From Euzebyales bacterium (GTDB lineage: Bacteria > Actinomycetota > Nitriliruptoria > Euzebyales > JAHELV01): 64,000 bases of DNA. Positions 46,721 through 53,272 of this stretch are shown in pieces. Position 1 is the stretch's first letter. Each line of letters opens with the position of its first letter. Both the position numbers and the translations under genes were made by a program. The stretch lies in the NCBI GenBank assembly GCA_035461305.1, contig DATHVN010000106.1, positions 1 to 64,000 of the forward strand. Direction: 5' to 3'. The notes under the pieces are model-generated. The model was given only the letters and a program-made list of their open reading frames with translations. It ran no database searches and had not been told where the DNA came from.

Positions 46721-47695
46721 CTAGCACACGCCCGGGCCATCGCCCCCCGATCCCACACCGCCGGCGGGATCCGTCGCGGGTCCGCCGCCGACCGCGTCCA
46801 GGCGGCGCACGGCGCGCCGCAGATCGTCGGGGCACGGCTCGTCGAGGGCCACGTGGGCGCCGGTCACGGGGTGTGCGAAGCCGAGGTGTGCGGCATGCAA
46901 CGCCGGGCGGTCCAGCTCCAGGTCGGACGCCAGCTCCGCCGACGCACCGTAGGCCCGGTCCCCCACGACCGGGTGGCCTAGCGCCGCCATGTGGACCCGC
47001 ACCTGGTGCGTCCGACCGGTCTCGAGCGTCACGTGGAGGCTGGTGGCCCGGCCCCACGAGCGCTTGACCTCGTAGTGGCTCACCGCGGGGCGCCCGTCGG
47101 CCGCCGTGCGGAAGCGCGTGCGGTCACCGGGGTGCCGTGCGATGGGCGCGTCGACCGTCGCCCGGGCGTGCGCGGGCGATCCCTCGACCAGCGCCCAGTA
47201 GTGGCGGGTGATGCTGTGCACGTCGAACTGCTCCCGCAGGCCGCGCAGGGCCTCGCCGGTCCGCGCGACGACGAGCAACCCCGACGTGCCCCGGTCGAGA
47301 CGGTGCACGATCCCGGGGCGCGCAGGGTCGTCGCCGGGTGCCAGCGTCACCCCCATCGCGCGGAGCGCGTCGACGAGCGTGCCGTCACCCACGCCCGCGC
47401 CGGGATGCACGACCATGCCCGCCGGCTTGGCGACGACCACGACGTGCTCATCGGCGTAGCGGACCGGCACCGGGGGTGGCGCCGCGACCGCACCGGCCGG
47501 CGCGTCGGCCACCTCGACGTGCTCGCCTCCGCGCACGCGGTAGGACTTGCGGACGACGGCGCCGTCGACGGTCACCTCACCTCGGCCCACGCGCGCCTGT
47601 GCCTGCGCACGCGGCTCGTCGAGCAACGCGGCGACGACCCGGTCGATGCGGTCGCCCCGGGCCTCGGCCGGCACGACCAGCCGGGCCGGCCCCAT
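46721..47695 (-). CDS. rluD: RluA/RluD-family pseudouridine synthase
   Basis: Modifies 23S rRNA uridines. 324 residues. S4-like RNA-binding N-domain (about 12-75) and catalytic domain with Asp in GIVHRLDRGTSGLLVVA; YWALVEG and LETGRTHQVRVHM follow. The ATG at 47695 shares one base with the lspA stop (TGATG). Confidence 0.94.
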   Translation of the reverse strand: MGPARLVVPAEARGDRIDRVVAALLDEPRAQAQARVGRGEVTVDGAVVRKSYRVRGGEHVEVADAPAGAVAAPPPVPVRYADEHVVVVAKPAGMVVHPGAGVGDGTLVDALRAMGVTLAPGDDPARPGIVHRLDRGTSGLLVVARTGEALRGLREQFDVHSITRHYWALVEGSPAHARATVDAPIARHPGDRTRFRTAADGRPAVSHYEVKRSWGRATSLHVTLETGRTHQVRVHMAALGHPVVGDRAYGASAELASDLELDRPALHAAHLGFAHPVTGAHVALDEPCPDDLRRAVRRLDAVGGGPATDPAGGVGSGGDGPGVC

Positions 47696-48345
47696 CAGCG
47701 CCGTGGGGTCGAGGTGTCGGGACGGACCGACGGGCGCCGCGGGGCGTTCGCCAGACGGCGCTCCTCGCGCTCGGCGCGCATCAGCAGCACCCCGAGCGCG
47801 AGGGCGCCGCACACGATCGCCGAGTCCGCGATGTTGAACACCGGGAACCACCGGAGATCGAAGAAGTCGACGACGTACCCGTTGGGAAGCCCCGGGTACC
47901 TGGCGACGCGGTCGATCGCGTTGCCCAGCGCACCACCGGTCAGCAGGCCGTAGCCGGCGGCAGATGAGAGGCGGTCGGTGTCGGGGAGGGCGCGCACGAT
48001 CATGATGACGACGACGACCGCCACGATCGGGAACATGCCGGAGAACCCTGGGATGCCGAACGCTGCGTTGGGGTTGCGGACCAGACGCAGGTCCATCAAC
48101 CCGAGGTCGATCACGCGGGCGGACAGCTCGGCGACCGCGATGCCCTTCGTGGCCTGGTCGCACACGAGGATCGCGGCGGCGACGGCCGCCCACACGACCC
48201 ACACGAGCCGTCCCGGCAACGCCCGTCGCGACGCCGGCTCCGAGCCGTCATCGGCGGCGGGGGTCGCGGCCGTGGCGTCGGGCTGCACGTCGCCCGGATC
48301 CGTGCCGTCCGGGGTCGTCCGCGTCTCGTCTGTCACCTGGGTCAT
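47695..48345 (-). CDS. lspA: Lipoprotein signal peptidase
   Basis: Aspartic membrane protease that cleaves lipid-modified signal peptides. 216 residues with an extra N-terminal cytoplasmic region (about 45, acidic). Four membrane segments. The catalytic Asp pair is Asp145 (GNAIDRVARY) and Asp174 (FNIADSAIV). Works after Lgt, also encoded in this window. Confidence 0.94.
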   Translation of the reverse strand: MTQVTDETRTTPDGTDPGDVQPDATAATPAADDGSEPASRRALPGRLVWVVWAAVAAAILVCDQATKGIAVAELSARVIDLGLMDLRLVRNPNAAFGIPGFSGMFPIVAVVVVIMIVRALPDTDRLSSAAGYGLLTGGALGNAIDRVARYPGLPNGYVVDFFDLRWFPVFNIADSAIVCGALALGVLLMRAEREERRLANAPRRPSVRPDTSTPRR

Positions 48346-48377: not shown

Positions 48378-48767
48378 CTACGCACCGCCAGCGGGCCCGC
48401 CCCCGCCCGACGGCGCACCGGCGATCGCGGCCACGACCTGCGCCGGCGCGCGCCCGGCGATGCGCAGCGTCTTGGCGCGCCCCGTCGCACCATGCTCGAG
48501 GACGACCGCGGAGGGCGCGACGCCGACCGCGCGCGCGACCGAGTGGCACAGTGCCGCGTTCGCCCGGCCGTCAGCGGCCGGTACGCGGACCCTCCACACG
48601 ATCACGGCGCGGGCGGGGCCGCCGTGACGGCTCGGCATCGACCGCACCTCGACCGGGCCCTCGCGGCTGGCGCCGGGCTGCGCGTGCACGGCGAGCAGGA
48701 CGTCCTCGCCGGCCGCCCGACAGGCGGCGTCGACCGCGGACGGGGGGATCGCGGACCGCTGCGGCAC
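48378..48767 (-). CDS. DUF167/YggU-family protein
   Basis: 129 residues. The family pattern VHAQPGASREGP, VRVPAADGRANAALCHSVA and LEHGATGRAKTLRI is clear. Function unknown. The start is GTG at 48767; TATCCT at 48779-48774 lies seven bases before it, so the message is probably leaderless. Divergent from the IleRS-like gene. Confidence 0.85.
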   Translation of the reverse strand: MPQRSAIPPSAVDAACRAAGEDVLLAVHAQPGASREGPVEVRSMPSRHGGPARAVIVWRVRVPAADGRANAALCHSVARAVGVAPSAVVLEHGATGRAKTLRIAGRAPAQVVAAIAGAPSGGGGPAGGA

Positions 48768-48878
48768 ACGGACAGGATAGGCTCCACCGCTTCCGGGGCG
48801 GTGCGGTATATCGTGACCCGCGATCGTCCGACACCGGCCCGGCGCGCCGCGGACCAGTGGCCCCAACGCCGTCGACCG

Positions 48879-51416
48879 ATGCCGCGACGTCCAACGGCGA
48901 CACGGGTGCCCCAGGTGCCGCGGGAGGTGGTCAGCACGCTCACGATCCGCCAGCCGGCCGACACGCCGCCGGACGCCGCCGACCTCGACCGCGGCGTGAG
49001 ACGTCGGTGGCGTGACCGGCGTCTCACCGGTCGGCCGGACGCAGCCCGCGACGCAGGGGCACCCCGCTACGCCCTCCACGTTGCGCCGCTACGCGCAGCC
49101 GGTCCGATCGATGCGGCACGCGTGACACTGCACGCGTCGGTCGACGTGCTCGCACGCCATCGGGCGATGTGCGGGACGCGGGTCGAGCACGTGCTCGGAT
49201 GGGATTGCCATGACCCCGCCGTGCCGGCGGACGGCGTGGAGCAGACCGTGTCGTGGCACATCGGGCGCGACGAGCGGATGCGGCGCACGCTGGGGTGCGA
49301 CGACACGGCCGGGACCGCGCAGACGATGGAGCCGACCTACGTGGACAGCGTGTGGTGGGCGATTGCACAGCTGTGGGAGGCGGGCCTGGTGCAGGAGGCG
49401 ACGACCACGGCGTGGTGGTGCGGAGCCTGTGGACGCGATGTCGACGACGACGGCGTCAACGCTTCGGAGGTGGCCTCGGCGACCGCGCTCGTCCGATTCC
49501 CAGTGCGCGGCGACACCGCGCTGTGCACGGTCGGTGCGTCGGTGCTGGTCGCCGTCGAGCAGGTCGCTGCGCTGCCGTCCATCGACGTCGTCACCACCCC
49601 GGCCGGCCGCGACCTCGTGCTCGCGCAGGCGGCAGGCGACGCCTACCCGGTGGTCATCGCGCGCGACGCGGTCCCGGCGGCGCTCGGGCCCGACGCAACG
49701 GTCCACCGCGACGTTGCGGTCGACGAGGTCGCCGGCCAGCACTGCCGCCACCCTTCGACGTCCCGCGCCGTCGAGGTGTCCATATCGGACGGCGACGCCG
49801 CGGCGACGGCGACCGGCTTCACGGTTCCGGTGGCGGCCGCGCCGATGGCAGGTGCCGGCACGGACACCGCACTCCTCGACGTGCTGCGCGACCGCGGCCT
49901 GCTGCTGCGCGTCGACGAGCGACGGCGCACAGTCACGCAGTGCGTGGCCTGCGGCGGTGCGGTGGTCCGGCGGGACGGTGGCGTGTGGGCCGTGACGACG
50001 TCGCAGGTCGCCGACCAGCTCGCCGCGGAACGGGCGGGCGTCACCCGCCACAGCGCCACGGGCACGCCGGCGCCGACCCCCGACGACGGCCGGGACTGGA
50101 TCATCTCGCGGTCGGCCGGGCACGGGATCCCCATGCCGTTGTGGCGGTGCGAGGTGTGCCATGAGGTCACCGCCGTCAGCGGGCGGGCGCGGCTCGCGGC
50201 CCTGGTCGGGTGCGAGGTCGACGCGCTCGACCCCTGGGACGGGTCTGTCGACACGGCGACCTTCGTGTGCCGAGCCTGTAGCGACGGCATCGCGCGGCGT
50301 GTGCGCCTCGTGGTCGACACGCGCTTCGTCGCGGGCGCGATGCCCTTCGCACGGTTCGGGTTCCCCGCGTTGCCGGGCAGCGACGTCCGCGTCGCACGGA
50401 ACTGCCACGCCGACCTCGTGGTCGACCGGTCGGATGGGGCCGCCGACGCCATGCTGATCGTCGCGAGCCTGCTGTGGGACGCCGGCAGCCACGACGCGGT
50501 GCTGACGACCGGCGGGCACTCGGCGGGAGACGACGTCGACGTGGACGGCCTGTGCGCGCGACACGGCGCGGACGCGGTCAGGTGGGCCTCCGTGACCGCC
50601 CCCGCGGAGTGGCTCGACCGGCATGTGGGCGAGGAACTCGCCGCTGCGGCGGTGGATGCCATCGTCACCCCGCTGCTGGACGCCTGCACCTCATTCGAGA
50701 AGGCGGCTGCTGACGCCCCCTGGTCACCGGCGGATGTCGCGGGCGTCGCTGACGTCGTCACGCGGCCGGTCTGGGACCGCTGGATCCTCGCCGAGCTCGC
50801 CGACACCGTGGCGGTGGTCCGTCACCGCCTGGACGACCTCGACCTGGCCGGTGCGGGCCGGCGCATCCAGTCGTTCGTGACGGCCGTCGGGCTGTGGCGC
50901 TCGCATCGCGCTGCGGACGCCGGTGCGACGGCCGAGCGGGACGGGGCGTCCTCCCTCGCGACGTTCCACGAGTGCCTCGTGACGGTCGCTGCGCTGCTGG
51001 CACCGTTCACCCCGTTCCTGAGCGACGAGCTGTTCGAACGGCTCGTGCGGTCCAGCGAGCCGGTGGCACCCGACAGCGTCCACCTGCTGCGCTACCCGGT
51101 CCCCCACGCCGCGGCACGCGACGACGACCTGCGCCGATCCATGCACGCCGACCGCGATCAGGGGATGCGCCTGGCTCGCGACGTCATCCGCGCCGTGAAC
51201 GAGCTGCGGGTGCACCGGGGCGTGGACGACGGCGACCCCATCACCGTGCGCATCGACGCCGACGCCGAGGTCGGGGCGGCGGTCGAGACGCACCGCAGGA
51301 CGATCGCCGACCACGTGCTCGCCACGCGCATCGAACTGGGACTGACCGAGGACGGGGTGCCCGTCCCGCTCAATGACGCGCCGGCGCGGCTGGCCCTGCG
51401 TCGGGCGGCGCCGTGA
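48879..51416 (+). CDS. Isoleucyl-tRNA synthetase-like protein lacking catalytic motifs
   Basis: 845 residues alignable end to end with IleRS: Rossmann start (62-120, GWDCH kept at 107-111), MEPTYVDSVWWAIAQLWEAG (150-169), editing region (about 200-345), DWIISR...GIPMPLW (406-422), GADAVRW (563-569), anticodon domain (from 628, VWDRWILAELAD; LLAPFTPFLSDELFERLVR). However, the HIGH position reads DAAR (78-81). An 11-residue gap removes KMSKS between GGH (547) and GADAVRW. The WTTTPWT and GTGxVHxAP editing motifs are gone. CxxC pairs remain at 181/184, 355/358, 424/427 and 464/467. It lies in the usual ileS position between divIVA and lspA. Aminoacylation is very unlikely. ATG at 48879 chosen; GTG starts a few codons later are possible. 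Confidence 0.87.
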   Translation: MPRRPTATRVPQVPREVVSTLTIRQPADTPPDAADLDRGVRRRWRDRRLTGRPDAARDAGAPRYALHVAPLRAAGPIDAARVTLHASVDVLARHRAMCGTRVEHVLGWDCHDPAVPADGVEQTVSWHIGRDERMRRTLGCDDTAGTAQTMEPTYVDSVWWAIAQLWEAGLVQEATTTAWWCGACGRDVDDDGVNASEVASATALVRFPVRGDTALCTVGASVLVAVEQVAALPSIDVVTTPAGRDLVLAQAAGDAYPVVIARDAVPAALGPDATVHRDVAVDEVAGQHCRHPSTSRAVEVSISDGDAAATATGFTVPVAAAPMAGAGTDTALLDVLRDRGLLLRVDERRRTVTQCVACGGAVVRRDGGVWAVTTSQVADQLAAERAGVTRHSATGTPAPTPDDGRDWIISRSAGHGIPMPLWRCEVCHEVTAVSGRARLAALVGCEVDALDPWDGSVDTATFVCRACSDGIARRVRLVVDTRFVAGAMPFARFGFPALPGSDVRVARNCHADLVVDRSDGAADAMLIVASLLWDAGSHDAVLTTGGHSAGDDVDVDGLCARHGADAVRWASVTAPAEWLDRHVGEELAAAAVDAIVTPLLDACTSFEKAAADAPWSPADVAGVADVVTRPVWDRWILAELADTVAVVRHRLDDLDLAGAGRRIQSFVTAVGLWRSHRAADAGATAERDGASSLATFHECLVTVAALLAPFTPFLSDELFERLVRSSEPVAPDSVHLLRYPVPHAAARDDDLRRSMHADRDQGMRLARDVIRAVNELRVHRGVDDGDPITVRIDADAEVGAAVETHRRTIADHVLATRIELGLTEDGVPVPLNDAPARLALRRAAP

Positions 51417-51949
51417 ACCTGCGACGTGCGGGGCTGGTGGCCGCCGCGGCGACGGCGGCGATCCTGCTGTGGCGGCTGCGGCCCGGATCCGCCGGTGAGG
51501 GCGACGCACCGGTCGGAGACGAACCGCGCGTGGTCGCACGTCTCGCGACCTGGGCGCCTTCGCGACCGTTGTCACGCGCTGGTCGGCTGGCGGGCTATGT
51601 TTGGGCCGCACCGCTCACGGCCGCGGGGCTGCTGCTCGGCGCGCTGTCCGGCTCACGGCCGCAGGTCCGTGACGGCGTGCTGCTGTTCACCGAGGCCCGC
51701 GGCCTGGGCGGACGCATGCTGCGCTGGCGCGGGTTCGGGGCAGCCACACTCGGGCACGCCGTGATCACCGCGCGAGTGCCCACCGAACGACTGCTGCGTC
51801 ACGAACTGGTACACGTCCGCCAGGCCGAACGATGGGGACCGCTGTTCGTACCGCTCTACGTCGCCGGGCTGCTCCGCTACGGTTATCGGCGCAACCCGTT
51901 CGAGCGTGCGGCCTACGCGGCGGCGGCTCCCGGTTCCGACGTCGCCTAG
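51413..51949 (+). CDS. HExxH-motif membrane protein coupled to the IleRS-like gene
   Basis: 178 residues. One N-terminal hydrophobic segment (about 6-20), another at 60-80, then LGHAVITARVPTERLLRHELVHVRQAERWGPLFVP in which His130-Glu131-x-x-His134 forms a metalloprotease-like HExxH, followed by a final hydrophobic stretch. Proteins with HE.VHVRQ.ERWGP are widespread but uncharacterised; protease activity is not established. GTG start overlaps the IleRS-like stop (GTGA), so the pair is translationally coupled. Confidence 0.7.
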   Translation: MNLRRAGLVAAAATAAILLWRLRPGSAGEGDAPVGDEPRVVARLATWAPSRPLSRAGRLAGYVWAAPLTAAGLLLGALSGSRPQVRDGVLLFTEARGLGGRMLRWRGFGAATLGHAVITARVPTERLLRHELVHVRQAERWGPLFVPLYVAGLLRYGYRRNPFERAAYAAAAPGSDVA

Positions 51950-52161
51950 GGTCTGGACGTGTCGTGCGGCGTGGCCGACGATGACGTCCAGCGTTGCGAC
52001 GGCGGGCGGGCGCGACGCACGCCGGCGCCCGCGATGAGCAGGCCGACGAGGACGACGGCGATGCTGGACCACAGCATTCCGGTGCCTTCCGCACCGAGGA
52101 GCAGGCCGATGAGGACCAGCACGGCGGCGATCAGCTCGATCGCCAGGCCGAGCGCGATCAC
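51946..52161 (-). CDS. Small two-helix membrane protein
   Basis: 71 residues: two hydrophobic helices (about 3-23 and 29-47) and a basic/Ser-rich cytoplasmic tail. GTG start overlaps the divIVA stop (GTGA), so it is the last gene of the dcw-type transcript. Its end overlaps the convergent HExxH gene by four bases. Function unknown. Confidence 0.65.
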   Translation of the reverse strand: MIALGLAIELIAAVLVLIGLLLGAEGTGMLWSSIAVVLVGLLIAGAGVRRARPPSQRWTSSSATPHDTSRP

Positions 52162-53012
52162 GCGGTGTCGCGGTTCTCGCCCTCGTTGTGCGACCGTGAG
52201 CCCGTCGCCGCACGGCGAGCGGCGACATCGTCGCCCGTGCCCTCACCGGTCTGGCGTCCGTTCTGCGCGCTCCAGACGCCCTCCGGGCGAGGGGACCAGG
52301 GCGGCCCGCTGCGGTTGTCGCCCGCATCGCCGACCGGCTTGGCATTCCACGCCGATCGCCGGGGCGTGCCGTCGTCGCCGCTGCGCTGCGCTGCGGGGGA
52401 GCTCGGCTGACGTGACCGCCTGGAGTCGCTGTCTCCGGTGTCCGACGGCAACCGCTGCGGTTCCTCGACCGACAGCGTGCCGAGCCGCTCGACCGACGAC
52501 GGGATCTCGGGCAGGTCGCCGACGCGGTCGAGGACGGCGAGCTGCTCGGCGATCGCGCTGCGCACGCGCTCGGTGTAGTCATCACGGAATGCCCGCAGGT
52601 GGGCAACCGCCCGACGCACGCGGTCGGCACCATCGCGAGCCTCGCGCCACTCGCGGTCAGCCGCCGACCGCGCACTGGCCAGCAGCTCGTCGGCGCGTCG
52701 GCGCGCGTCGCTCACGACGCGCTCGGCCTCGCTCTCGGCCTCGCTGACGACCCGGTCGGCCGTCTGTTCGGCCGCAATGAGCGTCCGCTTCAGCAGCCGC
52801 TCCGATTCCAGGGTGCCGGTGCTGCCCCCTGCCTTGCTCCCACCTCCCGAGCGCTCCATCTCACGGAGCTGCTCGAGCGCGCGGTCACGCTCGTCTTGGA
52901 GCGAGACGACGCGGTCAGCGAGACGCGACAGGTGGTCGTCGACCTCATCTGGGTCGTAGCCCCGGAACCGCTCCTTGAAGTCTCGCTGAATATCTTGGGG
53001 GGTCAGGCTCAT
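52158..53012 (-). CDS. divIVA: DivIVA/Wag31-type polar growth protein
   Basis: 284 residues. The membrane-curvature-sensing N-terminus MSLTPQDIQRDFKERFRGYD is typical, then coiled coil (about 25-50) and a second long coiled coil (about 75-165), and a disordered Arg/Ser/Pro tail. It scaffolds polar wall synthesis in actinobacteria. The ATG at 53012 overlaps the yggT stop by one base. Confidence 0.92.
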   Translation of the reverse strand: MSLTPQDIQRDFKERFRGYDPDEVDDHLSRLADRVVSLQDERDRALEQLREMERSGGGSKAGGSTGTLESERLLKRTLIAAEQTADRVVSEAESEAERVVSDARRRADELLASARSAADREWREARDGADRVRRAVAHLRAFRDDYTERVRSAIAEQLAVLDRVGDLPEIPSSVERLGTLSVEEPQRLPSDTGDSDSRRSRQPSSPAAQRSGDDGTPRRSAWNAKPVGDAGDNRSGPPWSPRPEGVWSAQNGRQTGEGTGDDVAARRAATGSRSHNEGENRDTA

Positions 53013-53272
53013 CAGCACACCAAACTCTGCAGGACGACGATCGCAACGAACAACAAGATAGGCGATACGTCAAGGGCCATTGCGCCCATCCTTATGCTTG
53101 GGATCAGGCCACGCAACGGTGTCAACAGTGGATCCGTGACCGCGTGGACAGCCCGAGCGATGGGTCGGACGGGTTCAGGCACCGAGGGTACCCACGAAAG
53201 CACGATCCGTACGATCAGGATCACGTAGTAGACCTGCAGGACGAAGCACAGGATGTCCCGGAGCAGGCTCAC
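53012..53272 (-). CDS. YggT-family membrane protein
   Basis: 86 residues with two membrane segments and the family pattern VRIVLSWVP...DPLLTPLRGLIPS. Always near sepF and divIVA in Gram-positives; its exact role in envelope growth is unknown. Confidence 0.92.
   Translation of the reverse strand: MSLLRDILCFVLQVYYVILIVRIVLSWVPSVPEPVRPIARAVHAVTDPLLTPLRGLIPSIRMGAMALDVSPILLFVAIVVLQSLVC

Follow-up and report, generated by a model that had tools for sequence, protein, structure and literature searches.

What does a bacterium keep when the gene in its ileS slot encodes an isoleucyl-tRNA synthetase (IleRS) stripped of its catalytic signatures, and why does the gene persist? The locus lies in the window analysed here, a stretch of 64,000 nucleotides from the Euzebyales contig DATHVN010000106.1, in which a frame without stops encodes an IleRS-like protein of 845 residues (48,879–51,416, plus strand). 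The start of the protein is uncertain and corresponds to the ATG at 48,879 or a later codon; residues 1–26 are disordered in the predicted model, and the orthologues start near residues 22–33. NCBIfam ileS is the top family for this protein (E = 3e-40), with a score of 138 bits that does not pass the equivalog cut-off of 621 bits. The Pfam families tRNA-synt_1 and Anticodon_1 are both found above cut-off, together with the end of DUF5915. By sequence, the nearest relative of solved structure is the IleRS from T. thermophilus (E = 3.6e-49). The closest fold in the PDB to an AlphaFold2 model of the protein (pLDDT 86.3, pTM 0.78) is P. megaterium IleRS2, although the input alignment of the model contained mainly active IleRS and biases it toward this fold. 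Pfam, AlphaFold2 and fold matching agree in assigning the protein to class Ia, with the CP1, Rossmann, and anticodon-binding domains of that fold. Family, Pfam, and structure matches thus bear out the original prediction of an IleRS-fold protein without catalytic signatures.

The losses affect both activation and editing. As predicted, residues 78–81 (49,110–49,121, plus strand) read DAAR in an ungapped stretch at the position of the HIGH site. In active relatives from the order, these columns hold GVHH within a PGVHHVEAR-like context, and for this reason the site is counted as lost relative to GXHH, a functional, mupirocin hyper-resistant variant of HIGH in IleRS2 (PMC10485003). None of the four dead copies known, this one and its three sister orthologues, has the site, and the residues that replace it are unconserved among the four. 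At the place of the missing KMSKS loop, around residue 545/546 and before GADAVRW (50,511–50,516, plus strand), the alignment has a gap; it was predicted at about 11 residues and is confirmed with a length of 10. Alignment also confirms that the editing motifs TTTPWT (residues 226–231; 49,554–49,571, plus strand) and GTGxVHxAP (GTGxVH at about residues 311–316; 49,809–49,826, plus strand) are gone, and the DQTRGW region is absent. On these grounds of sequence, the protein is expected to perform no catalysis and to be incompetent for aminoacylation.

Several elements of the ancestral enzyme are retained. The zinc knuckle C424xxC427/C464xxC467 (50,148–50,279, plus strand) is common to all four orthologues. 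The proposed persistence of four CxxC pairs therefore holds across the genus for the last two, while the first two (C181/184 and C355/358) are each kept in three orthologues. GWDCH and DWIISR, also listed as persisting, are present in this species only and lost from the three sisters. The best-kept domain is the anticodon-binding domain (residues 628–757; 50,760–51,149, plus strand), in which NWYVRRSRxRFW is nevertheless lost. It is followed by a tail (51,150–51,413, plus strand), which is what is left of the C-terminal domain. From this domain, each of the four dead copies lacks about 70 residues or more, among them the DUF5915 core with LKPNFRALGPxFG. The deletions differ in size between species of the genus, and the whole tail is absent from the copy in the sister genome G003.

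Wherever the flanks can be read, the gene order is lspA, ileS, M178, divIVA, yggT, sepF, ftsZ. In the window, lspA (47,695–48,345, minus strand) and divIVA (52,158–53,018, minus strand) flank the slot on its upstream and downstream sides, and this synteny with the active ileS of the order confirms the slot assignment made in the original prediction. A DUF167/YggU gene lies between lspA and the dead ileS (48,378–48,773, minus strand); in the order, such a gene is found near lspA in some genomes only (G003, G016, G021). Twenty-five other genomes of the order contain an IleRS match with all motifs, mostly within the lspA–divIVA slot, and the slot enzymes of these relatives have KMSKS (or KMSKR/KMSTS), TTTPWT, and GTGxVH. 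Two otherwise normal slot enzymes (L033 and L035, in G009 and G018) carry the KMSKS variants KRMSKS and KKMSTS.

A dead, syntenic, open-framed orthologue is found in all four genomes of the genus. In the phylogenetic tree, the dead copies group as a single clade (support 100) nested within the ileS clade of the order (support 99). The stem of the dead clade measures 1.58 changes per site and its tips 0.7–1.4, compared with 0.06–0.13 for the active paralogue. Locus and tree together show that the gene is the ancestral slot ileS of the lineage, of the GXHH-type IleRS2, in which activation and editing were most parsimoniously lost once, before the genus diversified. Its direct ancestor by tree and synteny, the actinobacterial GXHH IleRS2 that serves as slot ileS in the order (PMC10485003), has the same position, fold, zinc knuckle, and anticodon-binding domain. 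In contrast to this enzyme, the dead copy lacks GXHH, KMSKS, and the editing motifs, and the core of its C-terminal domain is deleted.

The presence of such orthologues in the whole genus excludes sequencing error and a recent pseudogene, the sister genomes carrying the same losses in the same slot in intact, conserved, open frames rather than in genes full of stops. A sequencing or binning artefact might be suspected from the fragmented assembly and its estimated contamination of 4%, but four independent assemblies agree on gene, slot, and loss, and we consider its probability negligible.

A profile of the dead copies scored the four members of the genus at 1149–1354 bits, and the next best match, at 654 bits, is an active enzyme. 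This search revealed no comparable dead copy in 66 genomes of the class or 397 of the phylum, a result that does not exclude unrelated inactivations. As far as sampled, the dead slot ileS is restricted to one genus. All of the 30 further IleRS genes checked in the class have the motifs, and they belong to the active GXHH type but for one exception. One class member (L175, G059:C23) shows an HXGH-type IleRS only, which suggests a further displacement of the GXHH enzyme within the class. An independent IleRS module without HIGH, KMSKS, TTTPWT, and GTGxVH was encountered on contig PUMO01000182.1 (L091:285–6017, plus strand), where a single frame of at least 1911 residues fuses it to helix-hairpin-helix, DUF835, zinc-ribbon, and acidic repeat regions. 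The contig is labelled as part of a Mollicutes MAG that has a normal IleRS elsewhere; DUF835 suggests an archaeal, misbinned origin.

A second, active ileS elsewhere in the genome had been anticipated, and exactly one other IleRS is found, on contig C48. It is an intact IleRS2 with HYGH, TTTPWT, GTGIVH, and KMSKS. The sisters G002 and G003 encode the same type with 86–87% identity, and G001 contains a fragment comprising its first 165 residues at a contig end (87% identity). This HXGH-type enzyme supplies Ile-tRNA in place of the dead slot ileS. The tRNA set comprises one tRNA-Ile(GAT) gene and several CAT tRNAs, with nothing unusual among the 30 tRNA loci read; an altered tRNA(Ile) set was accordingly rejected as an explanation. 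An IleRS of the C48 type, 67% identical, is also present in four genomes of another family (G025–G028). Three of these retain the GXHH enzyme beside it, and in G028 the slot ileS has been cleanly lost (L145, G028:C1:2966000-2983000), leaving the HXGH-type IleRS only and lspA directly beside M178. Together with the genus and the other relatives, G025–G028 thus place the original enzyme alone, both enzymes, outright loss, and retention of a dead copy all in one order.

Is the retained gene more than a decaying remnant? The original prediction took the open frame of 845 codons as an argument against decay. By itself this argument is weak, since DNA with about 70% GC contains long antisense frames as well, and codon-level tests were therefore needed. 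The four dead frames are open over 765–944 codons, and each pair of copies differs by 16–24 gap events, all of them in frame and none a frameshift. Neutral simulation to the same identity at the GC content of the window (70%) introduced about six stops per lineage and left 0 of 40 lineages stop-free, and even at an extreme equilibrium of 90% GC only 4 of 40 remained so. An ordinary pseudogene in decay would account for the loss of all signatures, the relaxed rates, and C-terminal deletions of unequal size between species; faced with uniformly open frames and in-frame gaps, it is very improbable.

The dN/dS analysis points in the same direction, with omega = 1 rejected by a codon model on the dead copies (2ΔlnL = 766). 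Only this rejection is used, as the size of omega is unreliable (about 0.5 by counting, 0.04–0.07 in the codon model) owing to saturated synonymous sites. The constraint is nonetheless weak and much relaxed compared with the active enzyme. Identity between species is 40–51% for the dead copies, 84–87% for the active IleRS, and 89–91% for DnaE. The replacement rate of the dead copies is about ten times that of the active paralogue, and their non-synonymous divergence (0.5) is as high as the divergence of dnaE at synonymous sites. Their amino-acid composition shifts toward G, A, R, and P. The near absence of lysine (1–2 residues) was considered as a special feature and rejected as compositional drift, the proteins of the window having a median of 1.2% lysine and some of them none.

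The neighbouring gene offers another reason for keeping a frame open. M178 (51,413–51,949, plus strand) encodes an uncharacterised small hydrophobic protein with HELVHVRQAERWG, for which only a sub-threshold Pfam match is found (eCIS_core, E = 0.026), and it is located next to ileS across the order. The stop of the dead ileS and the start of M178 overlap by 4 nt, GTGA (51,413–51,416, plus strand). An overlap of this length (ATGA or GTGA) is observed in 13 of the 17 order genomes examined, with dead and active ileS alike; in three more, TAG is directly followed by GTG, and G014 has no clear M178 start. In G003 the overlap is kept despite the loss of the C-terminal tail. Translation of genes with a −4 nt overlap is coupled (PMC10666635). 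Because the two genes overlap in this way in most of the order, a serious rival, absent from the original prediction and fitting part of the data, is that the dead ileS serves mainly as a leader cistron, its frame being kept for translational coupling to M178. Selection would then require only that the product be unbroken, foldable, and non-toxic, and would not act on a binding function. The rapid replacement, the indels that stay in frame, and the drift in composition are all in keeping with this. However, G028 carries M178 without any slot ileS. Furthermore, since the requirement imposed by M178 might be no more than an open frame, we simulated a frame-only null, which yielded 2ΔlnL values of 7–40 versus 766 for the real genes. 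Differences at the three codon positions are about equal in these simulations and 0.38/0.37/0.52 in the real dead genes. The frame-only null is strongly rejected. Codon models and simulations together show that the amino-acid sequence of the dead copies is still under purifying selection. The dead copies thus combine loss of the catalytic motifs with purifying selection, as functional aminoacyl-tRNA synthetase (aaRS) pseudo-enzymes do, and do not show the stops, frameshifts, and loss of selection of a pseudogene.

The constraint is unequally distributed. While omega = 1 is rejected in every domain, the anticodon-binding domain, the C-terminal half of the Rossmann domain, and the tail are the most constrained. 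Identity among the dead copies is highest in these three regions (60%, 61%, and 57%, respectively) and lowest in the HIGH half (39%), on the KMSKS side (34%), and at the CP1 end (37%). Resemblance to the active enzymes is 50% in the anticodon-binding domain and 33% in the Rossmann C-half. The latter (residues 480–548; 50,316–50,522, plus strand), which formed the adenylate half of the enzyme, has been rebuilt and then fixed in the four dead copies, which have FARFGFPAxPGSD ... HADLVVD ... ADA ... LLW in common. We defined as re-fixed those sites at which an active-enzyme residue conserved to at least 90% is replaced by one identical new residue in all four dead copies. Nine of the 14 re-fixed sites fall within the 69 residues of the Rossmann C-half, where 9 re-fixed sites stand against 11 variable ones, compared with 5 against 69 elsewhere (Fisher P = 0.00017, for a region chosen after the fact as the most extreme of eight domains). 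Coupling to M178 could account for an open frame and for a degree of selection on foldability, but it leaves the rebuilt and fixed Rossmann half unexplained; as the main reason for retention it appears rather unlikely.

A conserved new surface in the Rossmann C-half could also be where the dead protein meets the active IleRS2, with which it co-occurs in all four genomes of the genus. The protein would then be a non-catalytic subunit or modulator that binds this enzyme, and not RNA, in a SLIMP-like heterodimer. IleRS is normally monomeric, however, and G025–G028 have the same type of IleRS2 without a dead copy, which makes this arrangement improbable. Its precedent is SLIMP itself (PMC10570016), an inactive SerRS paralogue of animal mitochondria.

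The dead protein is most likely kept for a new, non-enzymatic job. We give about an even chance to its being a functional pseudo-synthetase, that is, the ancestral slot ileS retained after loss of activity as a non-catalytic binding protein. The second enzyme took over the loading of isoleucine onto tRNA, and the original gene lost that chemistry and stayed in place. The binding surfaces would be the kept anticodon-binding domain, the zinc knuckle, and what was once the adenylate half-site, now rebuilt. By analogy with SLIMP or HisZ, the most likely partners would be tRNA(Ile), another RNA, or the active IleRS. In favor of a binding protein, G028 demonstrates that outright loss of the slot copy is possible; the losses of NWYVRRSRxRFW and LKPNFRALGPxFG, the weak constraint, and the compositional drift count against it. 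A more specific version, which we hold tentatively and at somewhat less than even probability, is that the displaced synthetase has been repurposed in its own locus, where, with its ATP/adenylate half rebuilt into a new conserved surface or pocket, it would regulate isoleucine charging or another process without catalysis.

The role in tRNA-Ile binding that had been proposed earlier, as one candidate task beside sensing or regulation, fares less well. Because NWYVRRSRxRFW is lost and the DUF5915 core deleted in all four copies, specific recognition of tRNA-Ile is doubtful from the sequence, although binding of some tRNA is possible; the C-terminal domain of the P. megaterium enzyme is called tRNA-binding in PDB entry 8c8v. 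The original interpretation is thus partly supported. No T-box or other Rfam leader reached gathering score upstream in the window or at nine related loci, and no consensus promoters were found. Likewise, the gene neighbourhoods revealed no partner specific to the dead copies.

A residual or altered enzyme, for instance a tRNA-dependent transferase, has a parallel in SbzA, an IleRS-like isoleucyl transferase of Streptomyces that likewise exists beside a working IleRS in an actinobacterium (PMC6331615). SbzA, however, is an enzyme of an antibiotic cluster that retains HIGH and KMSKS slightly changed, whereas the dead protein has neither motif nor the DQTRGW region and lies among cell-division genes rather than in a biosynthetic cluster. 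We regard a catalytic role of this kind as highly unlikely.

The non-catalytic readings are reminiscent of inactive members of synthetase families whose role is to regulate another enzyme or to complete it (PMC10570016, PMC9437257). SLIMP, like the dead IleRS, is conserved, has an ablated active site, and exists alongside an active synthetase for the same amino acid; it differs in being a class II, mitochondrial protein and a proven heterodimer (PMC10570016, PMC9437257). HisZ, a HisRS paralogue regulating HisG, is likewise a bacterial aaRS-like protein without synthetase activity, but it belongs to class II, has a known enzyme partner, and arose as a paralogue, whereas the dead IleRS is the original protein, still encoded at its own locus after displacement (PMC9437257). 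The open-access literature searched yielded no description of an inactive IleRS that stayed at its original locus, a negative result that does not prove absence.

Most known inactive relatives of synthetases are additional paralogues, many of them in eukaryotes. Here, the original and once essential gene has been displaced and yet kept. Repurposing in its own locus, if true, would establish a bacterial family of IleRS pseudo-enzymes without precedent in the literature searched. There is also a practical consequence, as annotation pipelines may label the dead slot gene ileS. The question raised by this gene is whether a dead enzyme is kept for binding alone or only for the translation of its neighbour, and an order that has all outcomes side by side makes the fate of a displaced essential enzyme gene testable.
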